64,000 nt of DNA from Chloroflexota bacterium (GTDB lineage Bacteria; Chloroflexota; Dehalococcoidia; Tepidiformales; Tepidiformaceae), in assembly GCA_016234445.1 (NCBI GenBank), contig JACRBT010000001.1, positions 1 through 64,000 of the forward strand, in the 5' to 3' direction. Shown here one piece after another: positions 4,028 to 57,882 of the stretch. The notes beneath the pieces were generated by a model. That model was not told the DNA's origin. It worked only from the letters and a program-made list of their open reading frames with translations, and did not search any database. The number at the start of each line of letters is the position of its first letter. Within the stretch, counting starts at the first letter, position 1. The translations under genes and the position numbers were made by a program.

Positions 4028-4625
4028 TGCTGTGCTCGTAGTGCGCCACAAAGAGCGTTTCGAAGTCGCGGTCAGCGGAGCACACGCGGCAGGTGAGGTA
4101 CCAGATCCAGAGATGGTCTGGGGGCCGGCCGTACTTTTCGCGGGCGGCGTCGCGGGTCTCATCGAGCCGGGCCTGCATCTTGCCCCAGGGGGCTGAGAGG
4201 AGCCGCGTGTAGACGATGCCGCCGGGGCGTTCGACGCCCTTTGCGCCGGCGGGCGCGCCTTCGACTTCCAGCATCAGGGTGCGGCGGAAGCGGCCGGGCC
4301 CGAGAAGCAGCATCGCGTCCTCGGGGACGGTGGCGCCGAGCCTGGCCGCCGCCCCGGCAAGCTCGGCGCGAGTGGAGCCGAACCCCATGGGTACGCCGAG
4401 GACCGCGGTCGTGGAGGTCTTGAGGAAGGCGATGTCGCTCCAGTCGCTTTCGACGCCATCCCAGTCGGCGGGGTCGAGCACGGGGCAGTCGCAGGCGGCG
4501 CCGTCCGCGGGCGCATCGGGCGCCACTTCGGCCGCCTCACGGGAGGCCGGGAGTGAGTCGGGCACGGCCCGGCGGCGCGGCCCCCCTTCCTGCGGCGAAA
4601 CGGGCACTCGTTTTCGTTCAGTCAT
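4020..4625 (-). CDS. Conserved hypothetical protein
   Basis: 201 aa. No family recognised with confidence. The first 55 residues are Arg/Pro/Ala-rich and look disordered. The rest is a compact domain with two cysteine pairs (CDCPV near residue 63 and CRVC near 182), a Trp/Asp-rich segment DWDGVESDWSDIAFLKTS and a WIWYLTCRVC segment near the C-terminus; the four Cys could bind metal. The ATG at 4625 follows TATCCT by 7 nt, so it probably starts a leaderless mRNA. It overlaps mgtC by 8 nt, and GH13 ends 30 nt upstream. Confidence 0.7.
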   Translation of the reverse strand: MTERKRVPVSPQEGGPRRRAVPDSLPASREAAEVAPDAPADGAACDCPVLDPADWDGVESDWSDIAFLKTSTTAVLGVPMGFGSTRAELAGAAARLGATVPEDAMLLLGPGRFRRTLMLEVEGAPAGAKGVERPGGIVYTRLLSAPWGKMQARLDETRDAAREKYGRPPDHLWIWYLTCRVCSADRDFETLFVAHYEHSNE

Positions 4626-4654
4626 TGGCGGAAGGATACCAGAATGGCCACCGG

Positions 4655-10777: not shown

Positions 10778-12907
10778 TCAGCTGAAGGGCGCCGCCGCGA
10801 GGAGTTGCTCGTGGGGGCCGGGATCGGCTGCGGCCGGATCGCGCGACCAGGTGGCGTCGTCGAGGCGCCAGGCCTGGCGGCGATCCGCGAGGAGCATCTC
10901 AAGGAGCTCGGACAACTGGCGCTGGAGGTCTGGCTGGCGGACCGGCGCAAGGACCTCGATGCGTTCGTCGAGGTTGCGTTTCATCACGTCGGCGCTGCCG
11001 ATGAAGTACTCCGGGGCGCCGCCGTTTTCGAAGTAGTAGACCCGCGAGTGTTCGAGGAAGCGGCCGATGACGCTCACGACCCGGGCGGTCTGGCTGAGTC
11101 CGGGGAGGCCCGGGCGAAGGCGGCAGATGCCCCGGATGATGAGGTCGACCTTCACGCCGGCCTGGCAGGCTTCGTAGAGGAGGCGGGTGAACTCACGGTC
11201 CTCGAGGGCGTTCATCTTGAAGATGATCCTTGCGGGACGGCCTGCGTTCGCGTTGGCGATTTCGCGGCGGACGCGGCGCTCCAGTTCCGGCCGGAGGTTC
11301 GTGGGCGCGACCAGCAGTTCCTTCGTTTCGAGGACCTCCGAGTAGCCGGTGAGGTAGTTGAAGACGCGGAGCAGGTCGGCGCAGATCGCCGGGTCGGCGG
11401 TGAAGAGGCCGAGGTCCGTGTAAAGCCGGGCGGTGCGGGAGTTGTAGTTTCCGGTGCCGACGTGGGCGTACATGGTCACGCCGGTCACTTCCTCCCGGAC
11501 GACCAGGCAGATCTTGCTGTGGATCTTGAGGTTGGGCTGGCCGTAGGCGACGTGGACCCCGGCGCTTTCCAGTTTGCGGGCCCATTCGATGTTGTTGGCT
11601 TCGTCGAAGCGGGCGGTGAGCTCGACCAGGACGGCCGCCTGCTTGCCCCGGCTGGCCGCGTCGATCAGGGCGGCGAGGATGGGCGAGTCGGGCGAGGTGC
11701 GATACATCGTCTGCTTGATGGCAAGGACTGCGGGGTCATCGGCGGCTTCGTCGACGAACCGGGCAACGGTTGCGTCGAACGACTCGTAGGGGTGATGGAC
11801 GAGGATGTCGCGTTCGCGGATGGCGGTGAAGAACGAAGCGTCGTCGGTGACGTTGACGAACGCAGAAGGCACGGCGGGGATGAAGGGCGGGTCGGCGAGG
11901 TCGCGGAGGGGGAGCGACGCGACCTGGAAGAGGTCGGCGAGCCCGAGGGGGCCGTCGGAGAAGAAGATGTCGCCTTCCTGGAGTTCGAGCTCTTCGAGGA
12001 GCAGCTCGATCCGCGCCGGCGGGAGCGTGCCGGAGATCTCGAGGGAGACGGCCTCGGCGAGGCGGCGGCGGCGGAGTTCGCTTTCGATGAGTTCGAGGAG
12101 GTCGCTGGCTTCTTCGCCCGAGCTCCCGGTCTCGGCGCTGCGGATGACGCGCAGGGTGTGCCAGTCGGTCACTTCCATCCCCGGAAAGAGCATGTGGACG
12201 TGGGCGGCGATGACGTCTTCGATGGGGACGAAGCGAAGGTCGCCGGCCTCGATGAAGCGCGGCCGGTTCTGGGGGACCTTGATCCGGGCGAAGCGATCCT
12301 GCCCTGTCCCGGGATGCCGGACGTTGAGGGCGACCGAGAGGCTGCCGCTGGAGATGAAAGGGAAGGGGTGGGCCGGGTCGACGACGAGGGGGGTGAGCAC
12401 CGGGAAGATCGCCTGTTCGAAGTAGGCCGTGATCCGGGCGCGGGTGGGCTCGTCGAGTCCGGTGAAGGGGACGATGGAGATGCCGTGGGCGGCGAGCGCG
12501 GGGCGGAGTTCGTCGCGCCAGCGGGCACCGGCGGCCCGCCGCTGGGCCCCGCAGCGGGCGACGACGAGGTCGAGTTGCTCGGCGACCGTGCGGCCGTCGA
12601 CGGTGCGCATGCGGGGGTCGGCGCGATGGACGCGCTTGAGCCAGCCGACGCGCTTGCCATAGAACTCGTCGAGGTTGCTCGCGGTGATCGCGAGGAACTT
12701 CACCCGTTCGAGGAGGCGGTTGCGGGGGTCGCTGGCTTCGGCAAGCACGCGTTCGTTGAATTCGAGCCAGCTGAGTTCACGGTTGAGGTAGAGCGCGGGG
12801 TCGTCGAGGTCCCATGCGGGCGCGGTTGGCAGGCGCGGAGAGGGCGCGGCCGCTCCTTCGGAAGCAACCGGTCCGGTCTCGGCAACGGCGGGCGTCGCTT
12901 CGTCCAT
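10778..12907 (-). CDS. ppk1: Polyphosphate kinase 1
   Basis: 709-aa PPK1 that makes polyphosphate from ATP. The order is N-terminal helical domain (NRELSWLEFNERVLAEA near 35), head domain, then the two phospholipase-D-like C domains. The phosphorylated His is about residue 463 in NLKIHSK, followed by GTGNYNSRTARLYTDLG; the second domain has IGSADVMKRNLDERIEV. Start: the ATG at 12907 lies 7 nt after TATGCT, consistent with leaderless initiation; an ATG 12 nt upstream (MLSV) is the alternative. It has its own promoter inside the arg cluster, 77 nt after the GNAT gene. Confidence 0.96.
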   Translation of the reverse strand: MDEATPAVAETGPVASEGAAAPSPRLPTAPAWDLDDPALYLNRELSWLEFNERVLAEASDPRNRLLERVKFLAITASNLDEFYGKRVGWLKRVHRADPRMRTVDGRTVAEQLDLVVARCGAQRRAAGARWRDELRPALAAHGISIVPFTGLDEPTRARITAYFEQAIFPVLTPLVVDPAHPFPFISSGSLSVALNVRHPGTGQDRFARIKVPQNRPRFIEAGDLRFVPIEDVIAAHVHMLFPGMEVTDWHTLRVIRSAETGSSGEEASDLLELIESELRRRRLAEAVSLEISGTLPPARIELLLEELELQEGDIFFSDGPLGLADLFQVASLPLRDLADPPFIPAVPSAFVNVTDDASFFTAIRERDILVHHPYESFDATVARFVDEAADDPAVLAIKQTMYRTSPDSPILAALIDAASRGKQAAVLVELTARFDEANNIEWARKLESAGVHVAYGQPNLKIHSKICLVVREEVTGVTMYAHVGTGNYNSRTARLYTDLGLFTADPAICADLLRVFNYLTGYSEVLETKELLVAPTNLRPELERRVRREIANANAGRPARIIFKMNALEDREFTRLLYEACQAGVKVDLIIRGICRLRPGLPGLSQTARVVSVIGRFLEHSRVYYFENGGAPEYFIGSADVMKRNLDERIEVLAPVRQPDLQRQLSELLEMLLADRRQAWRLDDATWSRDPAAADPGPHEQLLAAAPFS

Positions 12908-12984
12908 CACCGACAGCATACGCGGCCGGGGCAAGGGTTTGGCATGAGGTGGTTCACGGATTCCAGGCCCGGGCGCGCGCCTTT

Positions 12985-17693: not shown

Positions 17694-18884
17694 ATGGCAC
17701 ACGCTCTCCGCAACGCAGGGGCCATCAGCGGCCTCGGGATCACGCCCATGGGGCGCATTTACGGGAAGTCGGCGACCGAGTTCGCGGCCGATGCCGTCCG
17801 GGCGGCGATCGCCGACTCCGGGCTGAAGCACGACGACATCGACGGGCTGCTCATCAACGCCGGGATCACCGGCAACATCGGCGGCGGGATAACGCTGGGG
17901 CTGCAGAACTACCTGGGCCTGAAGAACCTGCGGCTGCTCAACCACATGAACGCGGCCGGTTCGACGGCGGCCCAGATGGTCCAGTACGCGACCATGGCTA
18001 TCGCCAACGGGATGGCCCGGCACGTGGTCTGCGTCTTCTCCGACGCGCCGCTGACCGAGGGATCGAAGACGGGCGCGGCGTACGGCGGCGCCGGCAGGAT
18101 CGCGCCGCGGCCGCGGGGCATGGCCGGCCTCTATGCGGCGGCCGGATACTTCGGGGCAAACACCGGTTACGCGCTCGCGGCCCAGCGCCACATGGCCATG
18201 TATGGGACGACGCAGGACCACTTCGGCATCATCGCCGTGGGCCAGCGGCAGTGGGCGACCATGAACCCGATGGCCCAGATGCGCGAGCCCATCACGATGG
18301 AGGACTACCACGCCTCACGCTGGGTCATCGAACCGCTCCACCTGCTCGACTGCTGTTTGGTTTCGAACGGCGCGGTCGCGGTCATCGTGAGCAGCGCGGA
18401 CGAGGCGAAGTCGATGGCCCAGCCGCCGGTGTACATCCGCGGGATGGGGCAGGGACACCCGGGCGACACTGGCCGCGCCGGGAATGACGCAGAGACGGAG
18501 ACGGGCGCGAAGATCGCCGCGAGAACGGCCTTCGGGATGGCGGGGGTCGGCCCGGAAGATGTCACCCAGTGCCAGCTCTACGACTGCTACACCTACACCG
18601 TGCTGGTGACGCTGGAGGACTACGGATTCTGCAAGAAGGGCGAGGGCGGGCCGTTCGTGGAGGACGGCAAGCTCGGTCCCGGGGGGTCGCTGCCGACCAA
18701 CACGGGCGGCGGCGAACTCTCGGCCTACTACATGTGGGGGATGACCCCGCTGAGCGAAGCGGTCATCCAGGGCCGGGGCCAGGGCGGCGACCGCCAGGCG
18801 AAGAACGACGTGATCCTGTGCACAGGCAACGGCGGCACCCTCGCCTACCACGGGGCGCTGATCCTCAGCCCCCACGCGAACTGA
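17694..18884 (+). CDS. Thiolase-fold (SCP2/Ltp2-like) protein, first copy
   Basis: 396-aa thiolase-superfamily enzyme. The position that normally carries the nucleophilic Cys reads NAAGST (86-91), with Ala/Gly instead, and the usual GHPxG-type His loop reads NTGGGELSAYYMWG from residue 336. YDCYTYTVLVTLED is conserved. This pattern matches Ltp2-type retro-aldolases that cleave acyl-CoA side chains with a DUF35 partner rather than true thiolases; inference. AAGGAG lies 6 nt before the ATG at 17694 and TAGAAT at 17666-17671 is a likely -10. The DUF35 gene follows after 8 nt. Confidence 0.88.
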   Translation: MAHALRNAGAISGLGITPMGRIYGKSATEFAADAVRAAIADSGLKHDDIDGLLINAGITGNIGGGITLGLQNYLGLKNLRLLNHMNAAGSTAAQMVQYATMAIANGMARHVVCVFSDAPLTEGSKTGAAYGGAGRIAPRPRGMAGLYAAAGYFGANTGYALAAQRHMAMYGTTQDHFGIIAVGQRQWATMNPMAQMREPITMEDYHASRWVIEPLHLLDCCLVSNGAVAVIVSSADEAKSMAQPPVYIRGMGQGHPGDTGRAGNDAETETGAKIAARTAFGMAGVGPEDVTQCQLYDCYTYTVLVTLEDYGFCKKGEGGPFVEDGKLGPGGSLPTNTGGGELSAYYMWGMTPLSEAVIQGRGQGGDRQAKNDVILCTGNGGTLAYHGALILSPHAN

Positions 18885-20153: not shown

Positions 20154-20936
20154 CTACCAGGCCGTCCAGCCACCGTCGACGACGAGGGTGTGGCCGGTGA
20201 CGTAGCTGGAGGCGGCGCTGGCAAGGAAGATGACGGCGCCAGCGAGTTCGTGGGGCTGGCCCCAGCGGCCCATCGGCGTCCGCCCGGTGATGAAGTCGTG
20301 ACGCTCAGGGTCTTCGAACAGCGGCCGGGTGAGTTCGGTCTCGAAGTAGGTGGGGGCGATGGCGTTCACCTGGACCCCGTGGGGCGCCCATTCGAGGGCG
20401 AGGACCTTCGTCAGCTGCTCGATAGCGCCCTTCGAGCTGGCATAGGCAGCCTGGCTGGCCAGGGCGACCCGGCCCATGATGCTCGAGATGTTGATGACCT
20501 TGCCCGAGCCCTGGGTGACCATCTCGCGGCCGGCCGCCCGCGCGCAGAGGAAGTAGCCCTCGAGGTTCGTGCGGAGGACCTGCTGGTATTCGTCGAGCGA
20601 GAGGTCGAGGACGGGCTTCCGGACGTTCATCCCGGCGTTGTTCACGAGGATGTCGAGGCCGCCAAGGCCCGCGATGGCTCGCTCGACCAGTTGTTCGCAC
20701 TCACCTTCGAACGTGATGTCGGCCGGGATGGACTCCGCGCGACGGCCGAGGGCGCGGATCTCGTCGCGGACGGCGTCGAGCTCGGCCGCGGTGCGGCTGC
20801 TGACCACGACGTCCGCACCGGCGGCGGCGAGCGCCAGGGCCATGACGCGCCCGAGGCCCCGGCCGGCGCCCGTGACGACCGCCACCTTGCCGGTGAGGTC
20901 GAACAGGCGGGTGCCGAGGAGTTCAGGACGGTCCAC
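20154..20936 (-). CDS. Short-chain dehydrogenase/reductase
   Basis: 260-aa classical SDR. Cofactor motif TGAGRGLG (residues 22-29), NNAG at 99-102, and the catalytic Ser152-Tyr165-Lys169 ([14 protein letters not shown]). Closest by eye to gluconate 5-dehydrogenase or 3-oxoacyl reductase-like members; the substrate is not assignable. GTG start at 20936, 6 nt after TAGACT, hence probably leaderless. Confidence 0.92.
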
Positions 20937-20983
20937 AGCCGCAGTCTACCGGGTGGTTCCGGCCCGGGCAGCCGCCGGGCAAG

Positions 20984-25249: not shown

Positions 25250-25768
25250 TCACTCCAGGACGTCGATCGTCATCGCGATGGCGGATCCGGCGGCGTCGAA
25301 GCCCCATGCGCTCCAGCGCCGCGCTTCGGCGCCGAGGCGGGCGGCGGCGCAGGCTAATGCGGGCACGAGGGCCATGTCGAAGCCGTCCAGACGGCCGGGG
25401 CCAAGGGCGATGACGGCGGCGTGGGCAGCTTCGGCCTCGCGGCAGATGTGGTCGACGTCGAAGCCCATGGCGCCTTCGGCCCGGTAGGGGGCAAGGTAGG
25501 CGACGCTCGTCTGGAGGAGACGGTTGGCGCCGATGAAGTTGCCGCGGGTGACGTGGACGAACGCCGCCGCGAGCTGGATCAGCCCCTTGTAGAGGTCGCG
25601 GACGTCGCCCTGTTCCTCCTGCCAAATCTCCTCAAGGGTTTCGTGGCATTCGAAGAAGCGGACCGAGTTGAACTCGTCGCAGGCGCGCTGGAGCGCGGCC
25701 GGGACGGTGATCTGCCTCGAAACCCACTGGCGGGGCCGACGCGGAGACGTGGACGACGGAGTTGCCAT
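25250..25768 (-). CDS. DUF309 domain protein
   Basis: 172 aa. The segment FNSVRFFECHETLEEIWQEE followed by DLYKGLIQLAAAFVHV and NFIGANRLL is the DUF309 signature, an all-helical family of unknown biochemical role. The start is placed at the ATG of MATPSSTS because TACGCT ends 7 nt before it; the ATG two codons upstream lies only one base after that element. Confidence 0.87.
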   Translation of the reverse strand: MATPSSTSPRRPRQWVSRQITVPAALQRACDEFNSVRFFECHETLEEIWQEEQGDVRDLYKGLIQLAAAFVHVTRGNFIGANRLLQTSVAYLAPYRAEGAMGFDVDHICREAEAAHAAVIALGPGRLDGFDMALVPALACAAARLGAEARRWSAWGFDAAGSAIAMTIDVLE

Positions 25769-25851
25769 CGCCATCAGCGTAGCAGCCGGGTGCGCGAAAT
25801 GGCGTGGCGGTCAAGAATAGGCCGGTAGCCCCACTCCACCGAGGAACACCG

Positions 25852-26007: not shown

Positions 26008-26084
26008 GCGCCGGGCGAAAGAAATCCTCTCAACTTCACGTAAGGACCGCCCGTTCCGGGGAAAGCGGCCTGTATGATCGTCCT

Positions 26085-26591
26085 ATGAGTTCCCCGAGCG
26101 CGCCGGTCGCAACCCCGGGCAGCCGGATCCTCCTGCGCGCGACGAAGTTCGACGGGGCGGCGCACTGGATCCAGCCGTTCACTGTCGTTTCCGACGACGG
26201 CCAGTTGCTGGTGACCCAGTACAAGGCTCGGACGCCGATCTATTCGAGCCGGGGCGAGTTTCGTTCGCCCTACGACAGCCTCGTCTACTTCTGGCGCGAC
26301 CGCTGGTACAACGTCTTCCGGCTTTCGCGGCCTGGCTGCGAACTCGCGCTCTGGTACTGCAACGTCACCACGCCGCCCACCTTCGACGGCTGCCAGCTGA
26401 GCTACGTGGACCTTGACCTGGACGTGGCGGTGCGGCCGAACGGCTGTGTCGACCTCCTGGACGCGGACGAATTCGCGGTCCACCAGCAGAAGTACGGGTA
26501 CCCCCAGAGCGTCATTGCACGAGCGGAAGAGGCGGCCGAAGAGGTGAGCGCCCTGGCCCGGGCGAACGGCTTCCCCTTCAACAAGGGGTAG
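26085..26591 (+). CDS. DUF402 domain protein (Ntdp/FomD fold)
   Basis: 168 aa. The conserved DUF402 core is present: YNVFRL, then LALWYCNVTTPP, YVDLDLDVAVRPNG and VDLLDADEF. Known members hydrolyse nucleoside diphosphates or CMP-phosphonates in a metal-dependent way; the cellular role here is unknown. TATGAT lies 6 nt before the ATG (leaderless). argS follows in the same direction with its own -10. Confidence 0.88.
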   Translation: MSSPSAPVATPGSRILLRATKFDGAAHWIQPFTVVSDDGQLLVTQYKARTPIYSSRGEFRSPYDSLVYFWRDRWYNVFRLSRPGCELALWYCNVTTPPTFDGCQLSYVDLDLDVAVRPNGCVDLLDADEFAVHQQKYGYPQSVIARAEEAAEEVSALARANGFPFNKG

Positions 26592-26655
26592 GGCCAGCAG
26601 TCGGCCGGGCCGCGCGCTTCAACCATCCGGCGATTGCGACTACGCTGTACGTCCT

Positions 26656-28356
26656 ATGCCGGACGTCCGCGACATTCGCCAGCACCTCGAGTCCCTCCTC
26701 GCCAGCGCCGTGAGCGCGGCCATCGCCGCCGGGGACCTGCCCGACGTGGCCATCCCGGGGACGGCCCTGGAGCGACCCAAGGACATCGCCAACGGCGATT
26801 ACGCGAGCACGCTGCCCCTGCGCCTCGCGCGCTCCGCGATGAAGCCGCCGCTGGAGATCGCGAAGGCGATCGCCCGCCACTTCCCGGCGGACCCCGTGGT
26901 TGAGCCGCCTGCGGTCGCGCCTCCGGGGTTCATCAACTTCCGGCTCTCGCAAGGGTTCGTCCAGTCCCAGGTGGAACACATCGTCCGCTTCGGCCCCGCC
27001 TACGCCGACCTGGCACTTGGGAGCGGGAAGAAGGCGCAGGTCGAGTTCGTTTCGGCGAACCCGACGGGGCCCCTGCACGTGGGCAACGGGCGGGGAGCGG
27101 CGATCGGCAGCGCAATGGCGGCCGTTCTCGCGGCGGCCGGGTACGAGGTCGAGCGCGAGTATTACGTCAACGACGCCGGCACCCAGACCGACACGTTCGG
27201 CGAGACGTTGTACGCGCGGTATCAGCAGCAGTTCGGGCGCGACGTGCCCATCCCCGCCGAGGGCTACCCCGGCGAATACATGGCAGAGCTTGCCCGCGAG
27301 ATCAAGGCTCAGGCGGGCGACCGCTTCCTGCGGCCGCCGGGAGAGGCCGGCCCCGCGGACCTCACCGGCCTCGGGATCGAACTGATGGTGCGGTCCATCC
27401 GCCAGACGCTGGTCCGCTTCGGGGTGGAGTACGACCGCTGGTTCAGCGAAAAGTCGCTCTACGACCCGGAAGGCCCGTACGAAGAGGCCATGGGCATCCT
27501 CCGGGCGAACGGCCAGCTGGTCGAGCGCGAGGGCGCCCTCTGGTTCACCTCCAGCGAACTCGGGGAAGAGAAAGACAACGTTGTCGTGCGGTCCGACGGG
27601 CGCCCGACCTACTACGCGAGCGACATCGCCTACCACTACGACAAGTTCGTGCGCCGGGGCTTTTCGCTGGTCATCGACGTCTGGGGCGCGGACCACCACG
27701 GGCATGTGTCGCGCCTGAAGACGGCGACGGCGGCCGTGGGAGGCAACGCCGAGGGCCTCCAGATCCTCCTCTACCAGCTGGTGTTCCTGAAGCGCAGCGG
27801 CGAGGCGGTGAAGCTTTCCAAGCGCGCCGGGGAGCTGGTGACGCTGGACGAACTGATCGATGACGTCGGCAGCGACGCGGCGAAGTTCTTCTTCCTGCTC
27901 CGTTCGCCCGGGGCGCAGATGGACTTCGACCTCGACCTCGCGAAGACCCAGTCGAGCGAGAACCCCGTGTTTTATGTGCAGTACGCCCACGCCCGGCTGG
28001 CGAGCATGCTCGAACGGGCGGCGGAGCAGGGGATCACCCCCGAGGGCGGCGACGTGGGGCTCCTCGTGCAGCCCCAGGAACTCGGTCTCATCCGGGAGAT
28101 GATGCGGTTGACCGAAGTCATCGAGGTGGCGGCGACCACCTTCGAGGCCCAGCACCTGCCCCACTACGCCATGGAGCTGGCGACCGCGTTCCATTCCTTC
28201 AACGACGCCTTCAAGCAGCAGGGAGACTCGTCGCTGAAGGTGCTCACCGAGGACGTGGCGATGACGAAGGCGCGGCTGCGGCTGGTGCTGGCGGCGAAGG
28301 TCGCGCTCGCGCGGGTGCTCGGGCTCATGGGGATGACCGCGCCGGAGCGCATGTAG
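26656..28356 (+). CDS. argS: Arginyl-tRNA synthetase
   Basis: 566 aa. The class I HIGH-type motif is in NPTGPLHVGN (135-144); the KMSKS-like loop is KLSKR (386-390), not the classical form but found in many ArgRS. The N-terminal Add-1 domain and C-terminal DALR anticodon-binding domain are present. TACGCT lies 9 nt before the ATG. The 3' end overlaps the convergent DUF429 gene by 32 nt. Confidence 0.98.
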   Translation: MPDVRDIRQHLESLLASAVSAAIAAGDLPDVAIPGTALERPKDIANGDYASTLPLRLARSAMKPPLEIAKAIARHFPADPVVEPPAVAPPGFINFRLSQGFVQSQVEHIVRFGPAYADLALGSGKKAQVEFVSANPTGPLHVGNGRGAAIGSAMAAVLAAAGYEVEREYYVNDAGTQTDTFGETLYARYQQQFGRDVPIPAEGYPGEYMAELAREIKAQAGDRFLRPPGEAGPADLTGLGIELMVRSIRQTLVRFGVEYDRWFSEKSLYDPEGPYEEAMGILRANGQLVEREGALWFTSSELGEEKDNVVVRSDGRPTYYASDIAYHYDKFVRRGFSLVIDVWGADHHGHVSRLKTATAAVGGNAEGLQILLYQLVFLKRSGEAVKLSKRAGELVTLDELIDDVGSDAAKFFFLLRSPGAQMDFDLDLAKTQSSENPVFYVQYAHARLASMLERAAEQGITPEGGDVGLLVQPQELGLIREMMRLTEVIEVAATTFEAQHLPHYAMELATAFHSFNDAFKQQGDSSLKVLTEDVAMTKARLRLVLAAKVALARVLGLMGMTAPERM

Positions 28357-29110: not shown

Positions 29111-29168
29111 GCGCAGAGTATGCCTGAGCCGCGCCCGTAGCCGTGGCGGGCGGTAGTCTGCGGCGAAG

Positions 29169-29984
29169 ATGACCGACATGGCGCCACCACTGTCGACGAC
29201 GGGCAAGACCGCCCTGGGGGTTGCGCGCCTCTGCGCCGCCGCCGCACGGGAGATCATGCGCGAGGCGTTCGGGCGCGCGGGGGTCACGGCCGTCAAGGGC
29301 CGCGGCAACGTCCTCACCGAGACGGACATGGCGGTCGAGCGGGTGACGCACGAGATCCTCGGGCGCGAATACCCCTCCCACGCGATCCTCAGCGAAGAGA
29401 CCGCCGCCGAGGTCCGCAGCGATGGCTGGATGTGGGTTGTCGACCCCGTCGACGGGACGAAGAACTTCTCCCGCGGGATCCCCCACTTCTGCTACAACAT
29501 CGCCCTCTGCCACGAGTCGGAACCGGTAACGGCGCTGACGTTGCAGCCCTTACTGGACGAGGAGTTCGCCGCCGAGGCCGGCCGTGGCTGCACCCTGAAC
29601 GGCACCCCCGTGACCGTGTCGGGGGTTGAGACGGTCCGCGACTCGGTCTTCGCGATGGACATGGGCTACGACGACCGCCGCGGACGGCGCCAGCTGGAAA
29701 CCGCGCTCAGCCTCTGGCCGGGGATGCAGTCGTTGCGGGTGCCGGGGTCGGCGGCGCTGGGGATGGCCTACGTTGCCGCGGGCCGCTGGGACATCTTCGT
29801 CCACGCGAACATGCAGCCGTGGGACGTCGCCGCGGGCCTGCTCCTCGTCCGGGAAGCAGGCGGCGTCGTGACCGGGCGCGAGGGCGAACGGGCGACGATC
29901 TACTCCGAGGGCGTGGTCGCGGCGACGCCGGGGGTGCACGCGGACTTCCTGTCGCTGGCGGGCCATCGCCCCTGGCGGGCATAG
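29169..29984 (+). CDS. Inositol monophosphatase-family phosphatase
   Basis: 271 aa. Metal-site motifs LSEETA (Glu76/77) and VDPVDGTKNF (Asp92, Asp95) plus PWDVAAG near 218-224. The family includes inositol-1-phosphatase, 3'-phosphoadenosine phosphatase (CysQ), histidinol-phosphatase and fructose-1,6-bisphosphatase; which is unclear. A CysQ role would suit the sulfate genes elsewhere in the window, but they are 18 kb away. TAGTCT lies 9 nt before the ATG. Confidence 0.92.
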   Translation: MTDMAPPLSTTGKTALGVARLCAAAAREIMREAFGRAGVTAVKGRGNVLTETDMAVERVTHEILGREYPSHAILSEETAAEVRSDGWMWVVDPVDGTKNFSRGIPHFCYNIALCHESEPVTALTLQPLLDEEFAAEAGRGCTLNGTPVTVSGVETVRDSVFAMDMGYDDRRGRRQLETALSLWPGMQSLRVPGSAALGMAYVAAGRWDIFVHANMQPWDVAAGLLLVREAGGVVTGREGERATIYSEGVVAATPGVHADFLSLAGHRPWRA

Positions 29985-30012: not shown

Positions 30013-30915
30013 TCAAGCGGCAGAGACGAAGAGCAACGCGAGCACGGCGCTGCCGGCGGCCAGCACCCCGAACAATCCGTCGCGACCGAGCCTCGGAGCG
30101 ACGGTTCGGCTGGCGATACCCACCGCGGCGGCAAGAACGGCTGCTGCGATGGCGCGGCCGGGCGATTCGAACCAGAGGACGGCGACCGCGGCGACGGCCG
30201 CCCCGCCGAAGAGGCCGACGCTCAACACCCGCGCCGCGGGTTCTCCCGCGCGACCCGCCAGGCCGGCGTGGAGGCCAGCGGCATCCGGGGCCTGGTTCGC
30301 CAGGTGGAGCGCGAGCCCGAGGATGCCGCCAAGCGGGAACTCCCACCACAGCAGCGGATCCCATTCGCCAGCGGCAAGGAACACCCATGCGGGGATGAGC
30401 GGCAGGGCGAGAGCAAACGGTAGCCAGCTCAAGGGGGTCCGCTTGAAGTAGGCGTCGTACGCCAGCCCGCAGGTGAGCCCGGCCACGCCCGTCAGCCAGG
30501 CGGCCGGCCCGAACCACGCCGTGGCTGCCAGGCCGGCGCCAGCGAACGCACCGGCGAGAACCATCGCCTTGCGCCAGGAGATGAGGCCACTGGGGATGGC
30601 CTTCCACGGCTTCTCGACCTCATCGGCGTCGCGGTCAAAGACGTCGTTTGCGAGGCCGATCGAGAATTGGAAGCAGAGCATGCCGCCACCAAGGCTTGCG
30701 TAGAGCCAGGGGCTGGGATCGCCGCCGGCGAAGGGGACGAGGGCCACGGTGAGCCCGGCGACGAGAAACGATGGGAACGGATGCACGACGCGGAGGCGCG
30801 AGAGCCAGGCCGAGGCGTGCGCCGGGCGTCCCCCGGCGGTCGCGCGGGCGGCCACCCTCGCCGATCGCGGGGAGTGAGGGTTCCCGGCTCGGCGCCGGCT
30901 CGTTCGGCGTGGCAT
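30013..30915 (-). CDS. UbiA-family prenyltransferase
   Basis: 300 aa with about eight or nine transmembrane helices. The first Asp-rich motif is NDVFDRDAD (residues 90-98), which binds the prenyl diphosphate; the second is degenerate (GLAYDAYFKRTPLS). Members prenylate quinone precursors, haem or glycerol phosphate; the acceptor is unknown. The start (MPRRTS) is chosen because TAGACT lies 7 nt upstream of the ATG at 30915. Divergent from cinA. Confidence 0.86.
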   Translation of the reverse strand: MPRRTSRRRAGNPHSPRSARVAARATAGGRPAHASAWLSRLRVVHPFPSFLVAGLTVALVPFAGGDPSPWLYASLGGGMLCFQFSIGLANDVFDRDADEVEKPWKAIPSGLISWRKAMVLAGAFAGAGLAATAWFGPAAWLTGVAGLTCGLAYDAYFKRTPLSWLPFALALPLIPAWVFLAAGEWDPLLWWEFPLGGILGLALHLANQAPDAAGLHAGLAGRAGEPAARVLSVGLFGGAAVAAVAVLWFESPGRAIAAAVLAAAVGIASRTVAPRLGRDGLFGVLAAGSAVLALLFVSAA

Positions 30916-30982
30916 ACGGAGGAGTCTACAGGCTTGCGGAAGGGGAACTCGACTGAGGCGCGGGTGCTGTAGACTTGCCCGC

Positions 30983-32221
30983 GTGAAAGCGGAAATCATC
31001 GCCATCGGCACCGAGATCCTGCTCGGGGAGATCATCGACACCAACAGCGCCCACATCGCCCAGCAACTCCCGGAACTGGGCATCGACCTCAACTACAAGA
31101 CGGTCGTGGGCGACAACATGGGCCGCATTTCGGAGACGTTCCGGCGCGCCTGGGACCGCTCCGACCTGATCATCATGACCGGCGGACTGGGGCCGACCGA
31201 AGACGACATGACCCGCGAGGGGATCTGCGCGCTCCTCGGCGAAGAGCCGGTGGTCGACCCCATGCTCGAAAAGCGGCTGCGGGCGTTCTTCGAAGGCCGC
31301 GGCTACGTGATGCCGCCCTCGAACATCAAGCAGGCCTGGCTCATCCCGAGCGGTCGGGCGCTGGACAACCCCCGGGGCACCGCCCCCGGCTGGTGGGTCG
31401 AACGCGACGGCCGGATCATTGTCGCGATGCCCGGGGTCCCGCCCGAGATGGAACGGATGTGGGCGAACGAGGTGCGGCCCGAACTCGAACGCCGCTCCGA
31501 CGGCGAGGTCCTCGTCACCCGGACGGTGAAGACGGTCGGGATCGGCGAGGGCTCAGTCGACGAGATGGCCAAGCACCTCTACGGGACGCCGGGGATCGGC
31601 ATCGGCACCTACGCGCGGGCGGACGGCGTCCACCTCCGCATCGGGGCGAAGGGCCGCAGCCGGGAGGAGGCGTGGGAACGCATCCGGCCGGTCGAAGAGG
31701 AACTGCGGAGCATCTTTGGCAGCGCGATCTGGGGCTACGACGACGAGACCTTCGAGGGCTACATCGCCGACCAGATGCACGAGCGCGGCCAGACGCTGGC
31801 GGTGATGGAGTCATGCACCGGCGGCCTGCTTTCGAGCACGCTGACGGACGTGCCGGGGTCGACGCAGTACTTTACGGCGGGCCTTGTGACCTACCACGCC
31901 CAGCAGAAGATCGACGCCGGGGTGCCGGTCGAGGTCATCGAAGAGTTCGGCGTGATCTCGCAGGAGACGGCGAAGGCGATGGCCCAGGCCGTCCGCGAGC
32001 GCTACCGCACGGACTACGGTATCGGCGTCACCGGCGTGGCCGGCCCCGATCCGGCCGACGGCGTGGCCCCGGGCACGGTCCACGTCGCCGTGGCGACCCC
32101 CGAAGGCGGGGTGCACGCGCTTTCGATGACCATGAACACCGGCCGGGCAGCCGTGAAGCGCCGGGCGGTGACGACGAGCCTGTTGCTGCTGCGAAGGGCG
32201 CTGCTCGGCGAGGCTCGCTGA
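30983..32221 (+). CDS. cinA: CinA family protein (nicotinamide-nucleotide amidase type)
   Basis: 412 aa. N-terminal molybdopterin-binding-like (COG1058) domain with EIIAIGTEILLGEIIDTNS and MTGGLGPTEDD, and a C-terminal amidase (PncC) domain with VMESCTGGLLSSTLTDVPGS and GVTGVAGPDP. Full-length CinA hydrolyses ADP-ribose and deamidates NMN in NAD recycling. GTG start, 7 nt after TAGACT (30970-30975). Confidence 0.96.
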   Translation: MKAEIIAIGTEILLGEIIDTNSAHIAQQLPELGIDLNYKTVVGDNMGRISETFRRAWDRSDLIIMTGGLGPTEDDMTREGICALLGEEPVVDPMLEKRLRAFFEGRGYVMPPSNIKQAWLIPSGRALDNPRGTAPGWWVERDGRIIVAMPGVPPEMERMWANEVRPELERRSDGEVLVTRTVKTVGIGEGSVDEMAKHLYGTPGIGIGTYARADGVHLRIGAKGRSREEAWERIRPVEEELRSIFGSAIWGYDDETFEGYIADQMHERGQTLAVMESCTGGLLSSTLTDVPGSTQYFTAGLVTYHAQQKIDAGVPVEVIEEFGVISQETAKAMAQAVRERYRTDYGIGVTGVAGPDPADGVAPGTVHVAVATPEGGVHALSMTMNTGRAAVKRRAVTTSLLLLRRALLGEAR

Positions 32222-32224
32222 GCC

Positions 32225-33379
32225 CTAGCGGGGAAGCCCGAGGCCCCGGGTGGCGATGATGTTGCGCTGGATTTCGCTGGTGCCGCCGGCGATGGTGCGG
32301 GGGACCGTCGTCAGGTAGGTGAGGGCGAACTGGGCCTGGAGCTTCGCGTGGGGAGACCCGGGCATGAGGGCGCCTGCCATCCCGAGGGCGTGGAGGCCGG
32401 AGTTGGCGATCCGCTGGTCGAGTTCGCTGAGAAAGAGCTTGAGCAGGCTCGCTTCCTGGTTGGGGACGCCCCCCGATGCGAGGATGCTCGCCACCCGGTA
32501 ACTCAGCATGCTCGCCACGCGGACGCTAACCGCGAGGTCGGCCACGCGGGTGCGATGCACTTCGGCAGCCGTCCCGGTGTCGCGGAGGAAGGCGCAGAGG
32601 TCGTCGATGGCTCTCCGCGGGGCGCCGGTGTTGGCGATGTTCGAGCGTTCGAGGTCGAGCGTGGTGGTGGCGAGGTACCAGCCGCGGTTCACCTCGCCGA
32701 GGAGCGATTCCGCCGGCATCCGGACGCCGTCGAAGAAGAATTGGCCGAAGCCCTTGCGCCCGGCGATGTTGAGCAACGGCTGGAAGCTCACGCCCGGCGA
32801 CTTGAGGTCAAGCAAGAAGTAGCTGATCCCCTTGTGCTTGGGCACTTCCGGGTCGGTGCGGGCGAGGAGGTACATCCAGTCGGCGTAGTGGCCGTGGCTG
32901 GTCCAGATCTTGGTGCCGTTGAGTACCCAGTCGTCACCGTCGCGGACGGCGGTCGTCTGGAGGCTGGCGAGGTCGGAGCCGGAGCCGGGTTCGCTGAAGC
33001 CCTGGCACCAGACCGCGTCCCAGTTGGTGATGCCGGGGAGGTGGCGGCGTTTCTGTTCGGGGGTGCCGTACATCATGATCGTCGGGCCGGCATAGCCGAC
33101 GGCCGGACCGCGGCCGCCGCTCGGGGCGCGGGCATAGGCCATCTCTTCGCCGAAGACCAGTTGCTCGACTGAGCCAAGAGCCATGCCGCCGTACTCGGCC
33201 GGCCACGACGGTGCGATCCAGCCCTTCGCCGCCATCCGCTTGTTGAAGGCGCGAAGCTTCTCCGGCTCCTCCTCCTCGGCGTAGAAGAAGCCCTCGATGT
33301 CGGGCGTGACGTTGTCGCGAAGCCAGTCGCGGACTTCGACCCGGAGGGCTTCCTGGGCGGGAGAGAGGCGGAACTCCAT
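32225..33379 (-). CDS. Acyl-CoA dehydrogenase
   Basis: 384-aa flavoenzyme. It has the N-terminal helical domain, a middle domain with QGFSEPGSGSDLASL and WVLNGTKIWTS (FAD/substrate loops), and a C-terminal helical domain with RTIAGGTSEIQRNIIATRGLGLPR. Predicted to oxidise an acyl-CoA at C2-C3 in a beta-oxidation-like route; the closest style is the large actinobacterial/Chloroflexi family used on branched or cyclic acyl-CoAs. ATG 8 nt after TATACT, leaderless. Ends 4 nt from the cinA stop. Confidence 0.95.
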   Translation of the reverse strand: MEFRLSPAQEALRVEVRDWLRDNVTPDIEGFFYAEEEEPEKLRAFNKRMAAKGWIAPSWPAEYGGMALGSVEQLVFGEEMAYARAPSGGRGPAVGYAGPTIMMYGTPEQKRRHLPGITNWDAVWCQGFSEPGSGSDLASLQTTAVRDGDDWVLNGTKIWTSHGHYADWMYLLARTDPEVPKHKGISYFLLDLKSPGVSFQPLLNIAGRKGFGQFFFDGVRMPAESLLGEVNRGWYLATTTLDLERSNIANTGAPRRAIDDLCAFLRDTGTAAEVHRTRVADLAVSVRVASMLSYRVASILASGGVPNQEASLLKLFLSELDQRIANSGLHALGMAGALMPGSPHAKLQAQFALTYLTTVPRTIAGGTSEIQRNIIATRGLGLPR

Positions 33380-33399
33380 GGCGCGCCAGTATACGGCGG

Positions 33400-33957
33400 T
33401 CAGCCCGTGGAGGGATGGGCCTGCCGGAGGCGTTCGAGTTCAGGGGCAGCCTCGGCCAGGCGGGCGACCCGGTGGAGGTGGTCGCCGTCGAGCCAGCGGT
33501 TGCGGGGCCAGTCGACGAGGAAGACCGCGGGCAGCAGTTCGGCGAGCCAGCGGGCGGTGTGGGGGTCGTCCTCGAAGTGGGCCACGGCGCCGAGCTCGAC
33601 CACCCGGCGGGCCTTGAACTGGGCTGACTTTTCCCGCCAGTGGGGGCGCATGTGGAGCGGCGGGACTGTGCCGAAGTGGCGTTCGAACCAGTGTTCGGTG
33701 AGGCCGCGCGCGACTTCGGCCCGGGCCGTGACGACGTGGCATTCGAACGTCCCGGCGATTTGACGGAAGCCCTCGACCGCCCCCGGCATCGGCTTGCGGC
33801 CGAGGTAGCGCCAGCGTTCGGTCATCCAGAGAAGGTTGCGGTGGCCTTCGCCGTCGCGGCGCTTGTGCTGGCCCTTGCCGGGGTTGATCCCGAAGGGCGG
33901 GCGACAAAGGACGCCGTCGAGGTCGAAGGTCACCACGGGACGCGAGGGGGCAGTCAC
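33400..33957 (-). CDS. HAD-like hydrolase / nucleotidase-like protein
   Basis: 185 aa. HAD motif I is TFDLDGVLC (Asp12, Asp14), motif II is likely VVTARAE near residue 76 and a terminal acidic motif FEDDPHTA is near 130. No cap domain of note. Similar to uncharacterised 5'-nucleotidase-like small HADs. GTG start 6 nt after TAGCAT. Substrate unknown. Confidence 0.83.
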   Translation of the reverse strand: MTAPSRPVVTFDLDGVLCRPPFGINPGKGQHKRRDGEGHRNLLWMTERWRYLGRKPMPGAVEGFRQIAGTFECHVVTARAEVARGLTEHWFERHFGTVPPLHMRPHWREKSAQFKARRVVELGAVAHFEDDPHTARWLAELLPAVFLVDWPRNRWLDGDHLHRVARLAEAAPELERLRQAHPSTG

Positions 33958-34012
33958 CGTGCCATGCTAGCGGGTGGCGCGTAGCCGTTCGAACCGTAAG
34001 TGTTTCCCGGCG

Positions 34013-36759: not shown

Positions 36760-36798
36760 GCCTGTCGCCGGGCGGCACAAGCCTGTACGCTTCCCGCC

Positions 36799-37956
36799 AT
36801 GGATGACCCGCTGCTCGCCTGGCGCCCGAAGTTCCCGATCCTCGCCAGCAAGACCTACCTGATCAACAACTCGCTCGGGGCGATGCCCGCCAGCGTCCGC
36901 GACGCCCTGGCCGAATACACGGACCTCTGGGCGACCGAGGGGGTCGTCGCCTGGGACACGTGGCTGCCGGAGGTCGCGAACGTCGCCGCCGTGCTCGAAG
37001 ACATCATCCACGCGCCGCGGGGCTCGATGACGATGTCCCAGAACACAACGAACTCGCTCGCGGCGATCCTCTCCTGCATCGAATACGAGACGCCGCGGAA
37101 CCAGATCGTCCACTGCGCCGGCGAATTCCCGACGGTCGAATACCTGCTCGACGGCCAGAAGCGGCTCGGCGCCGAGGTCGTGCGCGTGGGCGACGACCCC
37201 CTGGTGTTCCCGGCCGGGGAACTGCTGGAGGCGATCGACGAGCGGGTGGCGCTCGTGGTCATCTCCCACGTGCTCTTCCGGACGGCGGAACTGGTCGACG
37301 TGCAGCCGTTCGTCGACCGCGCCCACCGGCATGGGGCGCTGGTGGTGCTCGACGCCTACCAGTCGATGGGGGCCGTCCCGTTCGACGTGACGGAGCTCGG
37401 CGTCGACTTCCTCATTGGCGGGTCGGTGAAGTGGCTCTGCGGAGGCCCCGGGGCGGGGTACATCTACGCCGACCCGCGGATCGTCGAGCGCCTGGAGCCG
37501 CGGTTGGCGGGGTGGTTTTCGCACGAGCGGCCGTTCGGGTTCGAGCCGCCGCCAATCGACTACGCCACAGGCATTGCCCGCTTCACCGGGGGCACCCCGA
37601 ACATGCCCGGCTACTACCAGGCGCGGGAAGGCTACCGGGCCATCCGCGAGGTCGGCGTCGAGGTCATCCGGGAGAAGGCGCGGCGCCAGACGGCCATCCT
37701 CTACGACGGCGCCCGGGCGCGGGGCCTGACCGTCAACAGCCCCGAGCGCTTCGAATCGCGCGGCAACCACGTGACGGTCGATTTTCCCGGCGCCGAGGCG
37801 GTGAAGCAGGAACTCATCCGGCGCGGCTTCGTCGTCGACTACCGGCCGGGCGCGGGCATCCGGATCGCGCCCCACTTCTTCAACAGCGACGACGAGTGCC
37901 GGGCCGTCCTCGACGAGATCGACGCCATCCGCCGCGTGACGAGCGCGGGCCGGTGA
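36799..37956 (+). CDS. Class V aminotransferase (kynureninase-like)
   Basis: 385-aa PLP enzyme. The PLP lysine is Lys211 in GGSVKWLCGGPGAG, with Asp185 and Gln188 (DAYQSMG) for cofactor binding. The overall pattern (W-L-C-GGPG-x-G) is closest to kynureninase and NifS-like hydrolases. No tryptophan-pathway genes are near, so kynureninase activity is only a possibility. TACGCT lies 7 nt before the ATG. Overlaps the next gene by 4 nt. Confidence 0.85.
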   Translation: MDDPLLAWRPKFPILASKTYLINNSLGAMPASVRDALAEYTDLWATEGVVAWDTWLPEVANVAAVLEDIIHAPRGSMTMSQNTTNSLAAILSCIEYETPRNQIVHCAGEFPTVEYLLDGQKRLGAEVVRVGDDPLVFPAGELLEAIDERVALVVISHVLFRTAELVDVQPFVDRAHRHGALVVLDAYQSMGAVPFDVTELGVDFLIGGSVKWLCGGPGAGYIYADPRIVERLEPRLAGWFSHERPFGFEPPPIDYATGIARFTGGTPNMPGYYQAREGYRAIREVGVEVIREKARRQTAILYDGARARGLTVNSPERFESRGNHVTVDFPGAEAVKQELIRRGFVVDYRPGAGIRIAPHFFNSDDECRAVLDEIDAIRRVTSAGR

Positions 37957-42048: not shown

Positions 42049-42086
42049 TTCGCCGCGCCGGGCGGCCGTCCCGTAGAATCGGCGGC

Positions 42087-43268
42087 ATGTCCCAATCTCT
42101 CGCCGGCCTCCGTGTCCTCGAAATCGGGACCTTCGTCTCTGCGCCCTACTGCGGGAAGCTGTTCGCGGGCTACGGGGCCGAGGTCATCAAGATCGAGCCT
42201 CCCGGCGGCGACATCGCCCGCACCCACGGGCCCTTCAAGGACGGCGTCCCCAACCCCGAGACGAGCGCCCTCTTCCTCTACCTGAACACGGGCAAGAAGT
42301 CGGTGGAACTGGACCTCGGCACGCCGGCGGGGCGCGACGCGTTCATGCGCCTGGCGGCAACCGCCGACGTGGTCATCGAGAACTACCGCCCGGCCGACCT
42401 TCGAGCGCTGGGGATCACGTATGAGGCGCTGCGGGCGGTGAACCCGCGGCTCGTGCTGGTCTCGATAACGGCGTTCGGGCAAGAGGGCCCGTACGCGGAT
42501 TTCCACGCGAACAATCTCGTCGCCTTCGCCATGGGCGGGCACATGTTCATCACCGGCACCCCGGAGGGCGGGCCGCTAAAGAACGGCGGCTACCAGGCGG
42601 ACTACCAGGGCGGCCTGAACGGCTTCTCCGCCGGGATGCTGGCGGTGCTGGCGGCCGAACGCGACGGCCTCGGCCAGCATGTGGACATCAGCATCCAGCA
42701 CTGCATGGCGCCGATCGTCGAGGCCGGGATCCCCTACTACTCCTACATGGGCCGCTGGAGCGGGGTGCGGCGCGGGAACCACATGGCGAGCTTCATCGGC
42801 ATCTATCCCTGCCAGGACGGCCACCTCGGCATCCACATCATGCCCCGCAACTGGAAGCCGTTCACCGACGCCATCGGCCGCCCGGACCTCTTCGACGACC
42901 CAAGGTTCGTCACCCAGGCGGCGCGCACGGTGAACAACGACGACCTGATGGCCGAGTTCTATGCCTGGGCCGCGGGCGAAACGAAGCGCGAAGTGTACGA
43001 GCGAGCCGGGCGGATGCGCGCGCCGATCGCGTTCGTCCACACGATGAAGGACCTGATGGAAAGCCCGCAGTTGAACGCCCGGGCCTTCCTCACGCGTATC
43101 GACCACCCCGTCGCGGGAGAAGCGACCTATCCTGGGCCGCCGTGGTGGATGGGGCCTGACGGCTGGCAGGCGGGGCGGGCGCCGCTCCTCGGCGAACACA
43201 CGGAGGAAGTCCTCGCAGGCGTCGCCACCGCCGCATTCCCTGCGACGGCCGCGGGGGGTGGCGAATGA
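42087..43268 (+). CDS. Family III CoA-transferase (CaiB/BaiF), first copy
   Basis: 393 aa. Family motif LAGLRVLEIGTFVSAPYCGK at the N-terminus and NTGKKSVELDL near residue 70. CoA-transfer proceeds through an enzyme-bound Asp, likely in the GGLNGFSAG/YQADYQ region; it moves CoA to an unknown carboxylic acid. TAGAAT lies 7 nt before the ATG. The stop overlaps the next gene by 4 nt. Confidence 0.92.
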   Translation: MSQSLAGLRVLEIGTFVSAPYCGKLFAGYGAEVIKIEPPGGDIARTHGPFKDGVPNPETSALFLYLNTGKKSVELDLGTPAGRDAFMRLAATADVVIENYRPADLRALGITYEALRAVNPRLVLVSITAFGQEGPYADFHANNLVAFAMGGHMFITGTPEGGPLKNGGYQADYQGGLNGFSAGMLAVLAAERDGLGQHVDISIQHCMAPIVEAGIPYYSYMGRWSGVRRGNHMASFIGIYPCQDGHLGIHIMPRNWKPFTDAIGRPDLFDDPRFVTQAARTVNNDDLMAEFYAWAAGETKREVYERAGRMRAPIAFVHTMKDLMESPQLNARAFLTRIDHPVAGEATYPGPPWWMGPDGWQAGRAPLLGEHTEEVLAGVATAAFPATAAGGGE

Positions 43269-56161: not shown

Positions 56162-56848
56162 TCAGATTTCGCGGAGGAGCGCCCAGGACGAGTCGAAGGG
56201 CAGCCCGCCAGCCCGGGCGGCCGCCTTCAAGGTGCGCACCTGGTGTTCCGGCGGGAGCCCGGCGAGGAAGCGCGAAGGGTTGCTGCTGACCTCGGTCGCA
56301 ACCGCCGGGTGCCTGCCGACGACCGCGAGGAAGGATTCGAAGACGTCGTCGTGGTCGAGGTAGTTTTCGAAGACGAAAAGGCAGATGTCCTCAAAGGTTT
56401 CGCTGTCTCCAGCCGCGAGGACGTCGTCGCAGGTGAGTTCGAGCCAGCCGGAGACGTCGGTCCAGGCGGCGGCTGCCTCCTTGCACTTGCGGGCCTCCAT
56501 GGCGTCGAGCGAGGAGAAGAGCATGACGAGGAACGTGGGCAGGCGGCGGCGTTCGTAACCCAGGCGGGCAACGTCGACCCAGCGGAGGTCTTCGTCGCAG
56601 GGGACGTGCTGGCGCTGGGCCGGGATGGCGCCTGCGAGCTCGTTCGCTTCCGTGTCGGGGAGGGTGCGGACCCAGTCTTCGAGGGTCTCCTGGGGGACTT
56701 CAACGAGGTCGATGACGGAGAGTGCGGCCAGGCGGCGATCGGGCGGGCCGTCCTGGACTTCGAGGATGAGTTCAGGCGTAGTCAGCCGGCGAAAGGCCGG
56801 TTCGTGGCCAAGCCAGCCGTCGTATTCGGGGGGCAGCCTCCGTTGCAC
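56162..56848 (-). CDS. Conserved hypothetical protein (228 aa)
   Basis: Mostly alpha-helical, acidic; no family recognised. Segments such as DRRLAALSVIDLVEVPQETLEDW and a long DDVFESFLAVVGRHPAVATEV pattern resemble HEAT-like helices. GTG start at 56848 chosen because TATCCT lies 6 nt upstream; a GTG two codons earlier is possible. Convergent with the DUF35 gene, divergent from hemB. Confidence 0.65.
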   Translation of the reverse strand: MQRRLPPEYDGWLGHEPAFRRLTTPELILEVQDGPPDRRLAALSVIDLVEVPQETLEDWVRTLPDTEANELAGAIPAQRQHVPCDEDLRWVDVARLGYERRRLPTFLVMLFSSLDAMEARKCKEAAAAWTDVSGWLELTCDDVLAAGDSETFEDICLFVFENYLDHDDVFESFLAVVGRHPAVATEVSSNPSRFLAGLPPEHQVRTLKAAARAGGLPFDSSWALLREI

Positions 56849-56907
56849 ATGCACAGGATAGCGGACGGCGAGAACCGGGCACGCAGGGAGAGTGCTAGGA
56901 TCGGGGG

Positions 56908-57882
56908 ATGGAGTCACCACTATTCAAACGTCACCGGCGGCTGCGCGGTTCGGCCGCGATCAGGGGCCTGGTCCGCGAAAACGAGCTGACGCCGTCTCAC
57001 CTCATCTATCCGCTCTTCGTTGACGCGGGGCTCAGCGGGCGAAGGCCCATCGAAGCGATGCCGGGACAGGATCAGCTGGGCCTCGACGCGCTCGCCGCGG
57101 AGGCCCGTGAGCTGGCCGGGCTGGATATCCCAGCGGTCTTGCTCTTCGGCCTGCCGTCGTACAAGGACGAGCGGGGGAGTTCGGCCTGGGCACGCGACGG
57201 CGTCGTCCAGCAGGCGATCGGGAGGCTGAAGGAAGCGAACCCGGAGGTGCTGGTCGTCGGCGACGTCTGCCTCTGCGAATACACCAGCCACGGGCACTGC
57301 GGCCTCGTGCGGGCGGACGGGAGCGTGGACAACGACGCGAGCCTGCCGCTCCTGGCGGAGATGTCCGTGAGCCTGGCCGAGGCCGGCTGCGACGTCATCG
57401 CCCCGAGCGACATGATGGACGGTCGCGTGGGCGCCATCCGGCTCGCGCTCGACAGCGCCGGGTTCTCCGAGACGCCGATCCTTTCCTACGCGGCGAAGTT
57501 CGCCTCCGCGTTCTACGGGCCGTTCCGCGAAGCGGCGGGCAGCGCGCCCGCGTTTGGCGACCGGCGGGGCTACCAGATGGACCCGGCCAACGCCCGGATG
57601 GCCGTGGACGAAGTGCTGACGGACGTCGCCGAGGGGGCGGACATGGTGATGGTGAAGCCGGCCCTCCCGTATCTCGACGTGCTCCGGTCGGTGAGGGACA
57701 GCGTGGACGTGCCGGTGGCCGCCTACAACGTCAGCGGCGAGTACAGCATGTTGATGGCGGCGGCGGAACGCGGCTGGCTGGATGGCCCCCGGGCGATCGA
57801 CGAGACGCTCACGGCCATCCGCCGGGCGGGCGCGGATATGATCATCACCTACCACGCGAAGGACTGGGCGCGGAGGCGCTAA
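56908..57882 (+). CDS. hemB: Porphobilinogen synthase (5-aminolevulinate dehydratase)
   Basis: 324 aa; condenses two 5-aminolevulinate molecules in haem synthesis. Schiff-base lysines Lys197 (SYAAKFASAFYGP) and Lys250 (MVMVKPALPYLD). The cysteine cluster Cys121-Cys123-Cys131 (VCLCEYTSHGHCG) marks the zinc-dependent type. TAGGAT lies 6 nt before the ATG; leaderless. No other haem genes are in the window. Confidence 0.97.
   Translation: MESPLFKRHRRLRGSAAIRGLVRENELTPSHLIYPLFVDAGLSGRRPIEAMPGQDQLGLDALAAEARELAGLDIPAVLLFGLPSYKDERGSSAWARDGVVQQAIGRLKEANPEVLVVGDVCLCEYTSHGHCGLVRADGSVDNDASLPLLAEMSVSLAEAGCDVIAPSDMMDGRVGAIRLALDSAGFSETPILSYAAKFASAFYGPFREAAGSAPAFGDRRGYQMDPANARMAVDEVLTDVAEGADMVMVKPALPYLDVLRSVRDSVDVPVAAYNVSGEYSMLMAAAERGWLDGPRAIDETLTAIRRAGADMIITYHAKDWARRR

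Follow-up and report, generated by a model that had tools for sequence, protein, structure and literature searches.

Leaderless genes have mostly been discussed for the Actinobacteria, the Deinococcus-Thermus group and the archaea. A genome survey defined TA-led genes by a TANNNT hexamer whose first T lies ~12 bp upstream of the start codon; such genes were found in 4 of 12 Chloroflexi genomes, where they make up 4.0–5.7% of genes (average 4.7%) and have signals of the form TAtaaT (Zheng et al., 2011; PMC3160421). Experiments in D. radiodurans have shown that its TANNNT motif serves as the -10 region in leaderless genes (PMC12340547, 2025). For translation in mycobacteria it is enough that the mRNA has an RTG at its 5' end, and position -1 is preferentially cytosine (Shell et al., 2015; PMC4633059). 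Literature searches that combined leaderless genes with Chloroflexi or Chloroflexota turned up no transcript-level study of the lineage.

The DNA described here (the window) is a stretch of 64 kb that forms the first part of a 410 kb contig. It comes from an uncultured member of the Dehalococcoidia (Chloroflexota) with a genome of 3.54 Mb and 68% GC. Among named matches, those nearest to its LeuS protein belong to Dehalococcoidia metagenome-assembled genomes and share 67–74% identity with it. The original prediction proposed that many of its genes carry a TANNNT hexamer 5–9 nt before the start codon, leaving no room for a leader, and that other genes keep a ribosome binding site. The 15 hexamer–spacer–start triplets that it named are all present, with the positions, strands and spacings that it gave (Table 1). 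A scan of all called genes in the window yields one extra candidate, TATAAT-8-TTG (34830), in which the TTG is unlikely to be a start codon.

Genome sample and controls

The genome was sampled as the window plus 40 stretches of up to 20 kb, giving 840 kb and 725–727 genes, ~24% of the genome. Starts were called blindly by a home-made codon-usage gene finder that took no upstream signal as input. Shuffle controls were dinucleotide-preserving. The frame control compares any in-frame ATG or GTG near the predicted start with those in the other two frames. An orthologue was counted as sharing the geometry when TANNNT stood 5–10 nt upstream of an in-frame start. The orthologous loci come from up to 29 non-independent genomes of ~15 genera in a single family; a few genomes are counted twice at overlapping loci.

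A TANNNT hexamer at fixed distance from the start codon

With blind starts, TANNNT is found at spacing 6–9 in 9 of the 64 window genes, compared with 1.0 ± 1.0 in the shuffles (maximum 5 in 300 shuffles). It precedes 50 of 322 genes in 20 stretches from elsewhere in the genome (shuffles 4.1 ± 1.8, maximum 10) and 28 of 168 genes in the relative G012 (shuffles 2.1 ± 1.4). The pooled histogram of the window and the 40 stretches reads 1, 2, 0, 3, 1, 3, 55, 27, 7, 6, 2 and 2 genes for spacings 0 to 11. It peaks at spacing 6 (55 genes), which places the first T at -12, and the next 27 genes have spacing 7. Counted from in-frame ATG or GTG codons, TANNNT at 6–8 occurs in 112 of 725 genes (15.4%) versus 3 and 3 in the wrong frames. 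The frequency of the close hexamer lies between ~11% (blind starts) and ~15% (best in-frame start).

Taken together, the shuffle, histogram and frame counts show that the close hexamer is a genome-wide feature with a peak at 6–7, not one spread evenly over 5–9. Enrichment over dinucleotide shuffles, the outcome on which the original prediction had staked itself, was thus found both inside and outside the window. The range of 5–9 nt given there needs narrowing: the enrichment holds at 6–8 and is strongest at 6–7, spacing 5 is not enriched, and spacing 9 is so only slightly (6 genes).

Properties of the close-hexamer genes

The 89 genes with TANNNT at 6–8 differ from the 638 others in several respects. 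A Shine-Dalgarno (SD) match of at least 5 bases is present in 2 of them (2%) versus 189 of the others (30%; p=3e-10). Five are operon-internal versus 177 (p=7e-7), and none starts with TTG versus 51 (p=0.0015). Within the hexamer, positions 4 and 5, on which no selection was made, are enriched in A (z 7.8 and 6.3; compare TATAAT), and G is enriched directly before it (-1 relative to the hexamer, z 5.7). The commonest form is TACACT (14/89). Of a possible -35 element there is no more than a hint, T at -23 (z 2.9). Position -1 relative to the start codon holds a pyrimidine in 64 of 82 close-hexamer genes versus 350 of 643 others (p=4e-5), which matches what transcription starting on the start codon predicts.

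In first genes that lack the close hexamer, TANNNT forms another, broader hump 27–32 nt upstream, where promoters giving leaders of ~20–25 nt would place it. An example in the window is the gene at 17694-18884, where TAGAAT is followed by a 22-nt gap containing AAGGAG and then by ATG. The hump and this example indicate that the two modes of expression coexist; that SD-led genes stand beside the close-hexamer genes had also been part of the original prediction, and it holds.

The hexamer occupies the place of the SD site and excludes it, which is what would be seen if it were a signal in the mRNA that recruits ribosomes by another route, and not a promoter. Such a signal should persist inside operons, where the hexamer is instead depleted (5/89 vs 177/638). 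The Pribnow-like composition and the TANNNT at 27–32 nt in leadered first genes also argue against this role, as do two g13 genomes in which the orthologue of the 56848 gene retains TATCCT at a distance of 16 and 25 nt and has a purine-rich leader. A recruitment signal is therefore very improbable, and the hexamer is better read as a -10 element.

Conservation among orthologues

At 11 of the 15 sites the geometry is conserved across genera (Table 1); conservation is slight at 29154 and lacking at the other three. Eight of the conserved sites each show the geometry in 10–26 loci while the flanks diverge. Spacing is exactly 6 in all DUF402 orthologues despite start shifts of 0–3 codons between genera. 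The CoA-transferase III orthologues that share the geometry have TAGAAT or TAAGAT at 6–8, and the five g12-type genomes have lost it. Among the hemB orthologues without the hexamer, 6 of 7 have an SD match of at least 4 bases. The remaining orthologues of the 29154 site are SD-led or unclear. In hemB loci L225-L227 and L230 (g12), L215 and L236, SD-like GGAGG or AGGAG sites stand in place of the close hexamer that other genera have.

Table 1. Hexamer–spacer–start triplets of the window and the presence of the geometry in orthologues (spacing in nt).
Triplet	Position	Strand	Gene	Gene coordinates	Orthologues with the geometry
TATCCT-7-ATG	4623..4638	-	hydrolase family	4020-4625	2/3 loci
TATGCT-7-ATG	12905..12920	-	polyphosphate kinase		no convincing match, ~17 close orthologues
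TAGACT-6-GTG	20934..20948	-	short-chain dehydrogenase (SDR)	20154-20936	1/1 locus
TACGCT-7-ATG	25766..25781	-	DUF309	25250-25768	10/11 loci, spacing 6-7
TATGAT-6-ATG	26073..26087	+	DUF402	26085-26591	19/19 loci
TACGCT-9-ATG	26641..26658	+	argS	26656-28356	26/26 loci
TAGTCT-9-ATG	29154..29171	+	inositol-monophosphatase family		2/10 loci; weakly supported
TAGACT-7-ATG	30913..30928	-	UbiA family		0/3 diverged loci
TAGACT-7-GTG	30970..30985	+	cinA	30983-32221	23/25 loci
TATACT-8-ATG	33377..33393	-	acyl-CoA dehydrogenase	32225-33379	3/3 loci
TAGCAT-6-GTG	33955..33969	-		33400-33957	11/11 loci, spacing 6-7
TACGCT-7-ATG	36786..36801	+	kynureninase-like	36799-37956	0/13 orthologues
TAGAAT-7-ATG	42074..42089	+	CoA-transferase III (CaiB-like)	42087-43268	15/20 orthologues
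TATCCT-6-GTG	56846..56860	-	divergent from hemB	56162-56848	18/20 loci
TAGGAT-6-ATG	56896..56910	+	hemB	56908-57882	19/26 loci

Start calling is error-prone in GC-rich genomes, and at several window genes the start of the blind model differs from the one linked to the hexamer. The hexamer could then be an ordinary promoter, with translation beginning at a downstream in-frame codon that has an SD site. The protein alignments speak against misassignment, with conserved N-termini starting at the codon linked to the hexamer: the CinA N-terminus aligns at model position 1, and the orthologues of hemB, argS and acyl-CoA dehydrogenase align from residue 1. As starts in the wrong frames show no enrichment either, wrongly placed starts are a most unlikely explanation.

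The argS orthologues keep spacing 9 in 17 of 26 loci, and spacing 6 is found in g12-type genomes. For argS itself a leader of 1–5 nt is probably likelier than none at all. Such a minimal leader could be present on most transcripts, the hexamers being real -10 elements; spacings of 8–9 do exist, and in any bacterium the choice of transcription start shifts by a base or two. The mode at 6 (55/89), followed by 7 (27), agrees better with transcription that begins precisely at the codon, as do the pyrimidine at -1 and the purine at +1. Short leaders as the general rule thus appear unlikely, though less so than the other alternatives, and transcription starting on the start codon, or one or two bases from it, remains the preferred reading.

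Conservation was absent for the kynureninase-like, UbiA-family and polyphosphate kinase genes. Since the same orthologue search returns nothing at these sites, they serve as internal negative controls; non-conservation alone does not make a site non-functional. In 11 of the 13 kynureninase-like orthologues (L084 and L086-L095; G017:C1:120333-120356) an inverted repeat of 9–13 bp (ATCGGGCATGC..GCATGCCCGAT) is present, with the ATG start inside its right arm. It has a constant 24-bp core and occurs once per genome, and one copy carries a compensatory change (ATCAGGCATGC/GCATGCCTGAT). The window gene is without it. The repeat could be an operator or a hairpin that sequesters the start codon.

The gene divergent from hemB varies in another way. 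In the orthologues L228, L231, L221, L224, L229 and L233, all of one genus, TATCCT is kept at distances of 9, 10, 16 and 25 nt. Purine-rich, SD-like leaders are seen in those with the longer spacing. This range of distances may possibly represent a series of leader gain.

Distribution in the phylum

A gene-anchored test was positive for G012 (12%), for G011 (8%; the codon table for gene calling was seeded from the genome of the window) and for G135, from another family of the class (11%). It was negative for the Dehalococcoides-like G049, for G305 (from a different family of the phylum, 65% GC) and for E. coli K-12. The result for G305 shows that high GC alone does not create the geometry.

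Chance matches in a composition-biased genome might be suspected, as only three bases are fixed in TANNNT and 3 of the 15 sites are without orthologue support. For the set of sites as a whole, chance is refuted by the dinucleotide shuffles, the wrong-frame starts and the negative G305, G049 and E. coli genomes, and we consider it virtually impossible; single sites are a separate matter. As a set, the hexamers are accordingly treated as a real signal.

Pattern counts in 148 genomes of the class and 161 of the phylum suggest several further positive families and give a provisional map. The reversed-pattern control of these whole-genome counts is not composition-neutral (TTG pattern, 51 vs 207), so that the family-level ratios are a hint only and the gene-anchored tests were relied upon. 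G282 (f88) gives 146 vs 53 by pattern count yet has no gene-anchored peak in a small sample of 33 genes. In families f93, f103, f78 and f80 TANNNTN6ATG is rarer than the reversed control (ratio 0.58–0.89), which is probably due to codon bias of the control and not to avoidance.

Proposed mechanism

Directly observed are the presence of the hexamer at a fixed spacing, its conservation and the exclusion of SD sites. The hexamers are very probably -10 elements of the sigma-70 type, bound by the housekeeping (sigma-70/SigA-type) RNA polymerase. Transcription would begin at the first base of the start codon (A or G) or no more than one or two bases away from it. About 15% of genes, mostly the first in their transcription units, would in this way give leaderless mRNAs, on which ribosomes would engage the 5'-terminal AUG or GUG without SD pairing. 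The mRNAs of the remaining genes would carry a leader of the usual kind with an SD site. We infer that polymerase binds the hexamer, where exactly transcription starts and that ribosomes initiate at the 5' terminus. At the sequence level, what the original prediction of leaderless transcripts entails was borne out by the enrichment over shuffles, SD exclusion, depletion inside operons, restriction to RTG starts, the A-rich hexamer, the pyrimidine/purine step at the start codon and the conservation at 11 of 15 sites.

One gene shows -10-to-start spacings of 6, 7, 9, 10, 16 and 25 among relatives. A wider proposal, which we regard as evenly poised between right and wrong, is that in this Dehalococcoidia family the position of the start codon follows the -10 element and not the protein, and that selection keeps the leaderless form at 15% of genes or more. 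Lineages would differ sharply irrespective of GC, and the leadered mode would arise by the start codon moving away from an unmoved -10, so that relatives would offer a natural series for the birth or loss of leaders.

The geometry is conserved at ~15% of genes here and absent in Dehalococcoides-like relatives, which means that the trait varies within one class. Pairs of close relatives allow the leaderless form of a gene to be compared with its leadered form. The -10 geometry could also be used to improve the annotation of start codons in these genomes.

Comparison with known leaderless systems

The genes described here resemble the TA-led genes of Zheng et al. (PMC3160421) in having TANNNT with its first T ~12 bp upstream and in excess over dinucleotide shuffles. 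As in the high-GC genomes of that survey, the middle bases of the hexamer carry little information. They differ from the Chloroflexi reported there in frequency (~11–15% vs 4.0–5.7%) and in the GC-rich form of TANNNT, in contrast to TAtaaT. The -10-motif genes of Deinococcus-Thermus are similar in that TANNNT lies mostly 6–7 bp from the ORF with TACACT the commonest form, T1, A2 and T6 are conserved in orthologues and RBS-led genes coexist (PMC12340547). In that phylum they make up ~30% of ORFs and are experimentally proven (PMC12340547), whereas the ~15% in this genome of another phylum is predicted from the DNA. Leaderless mRNAs of Mycobacterium have ATG or GTG at the 5' end, a preference for C at -1 and no SD (PMC4633059); here the starts are RTG only, with C or T favoured at -1. 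Transcripts and ribosome footprints have been mapped in Mycobacterium (PMC4633059), while the present genes are described from genome sequence. The arrangement is thus already known from Deinococcus and Mycobacterium; what is new is the lineage and the abundance, which is unusually high for the phylum.
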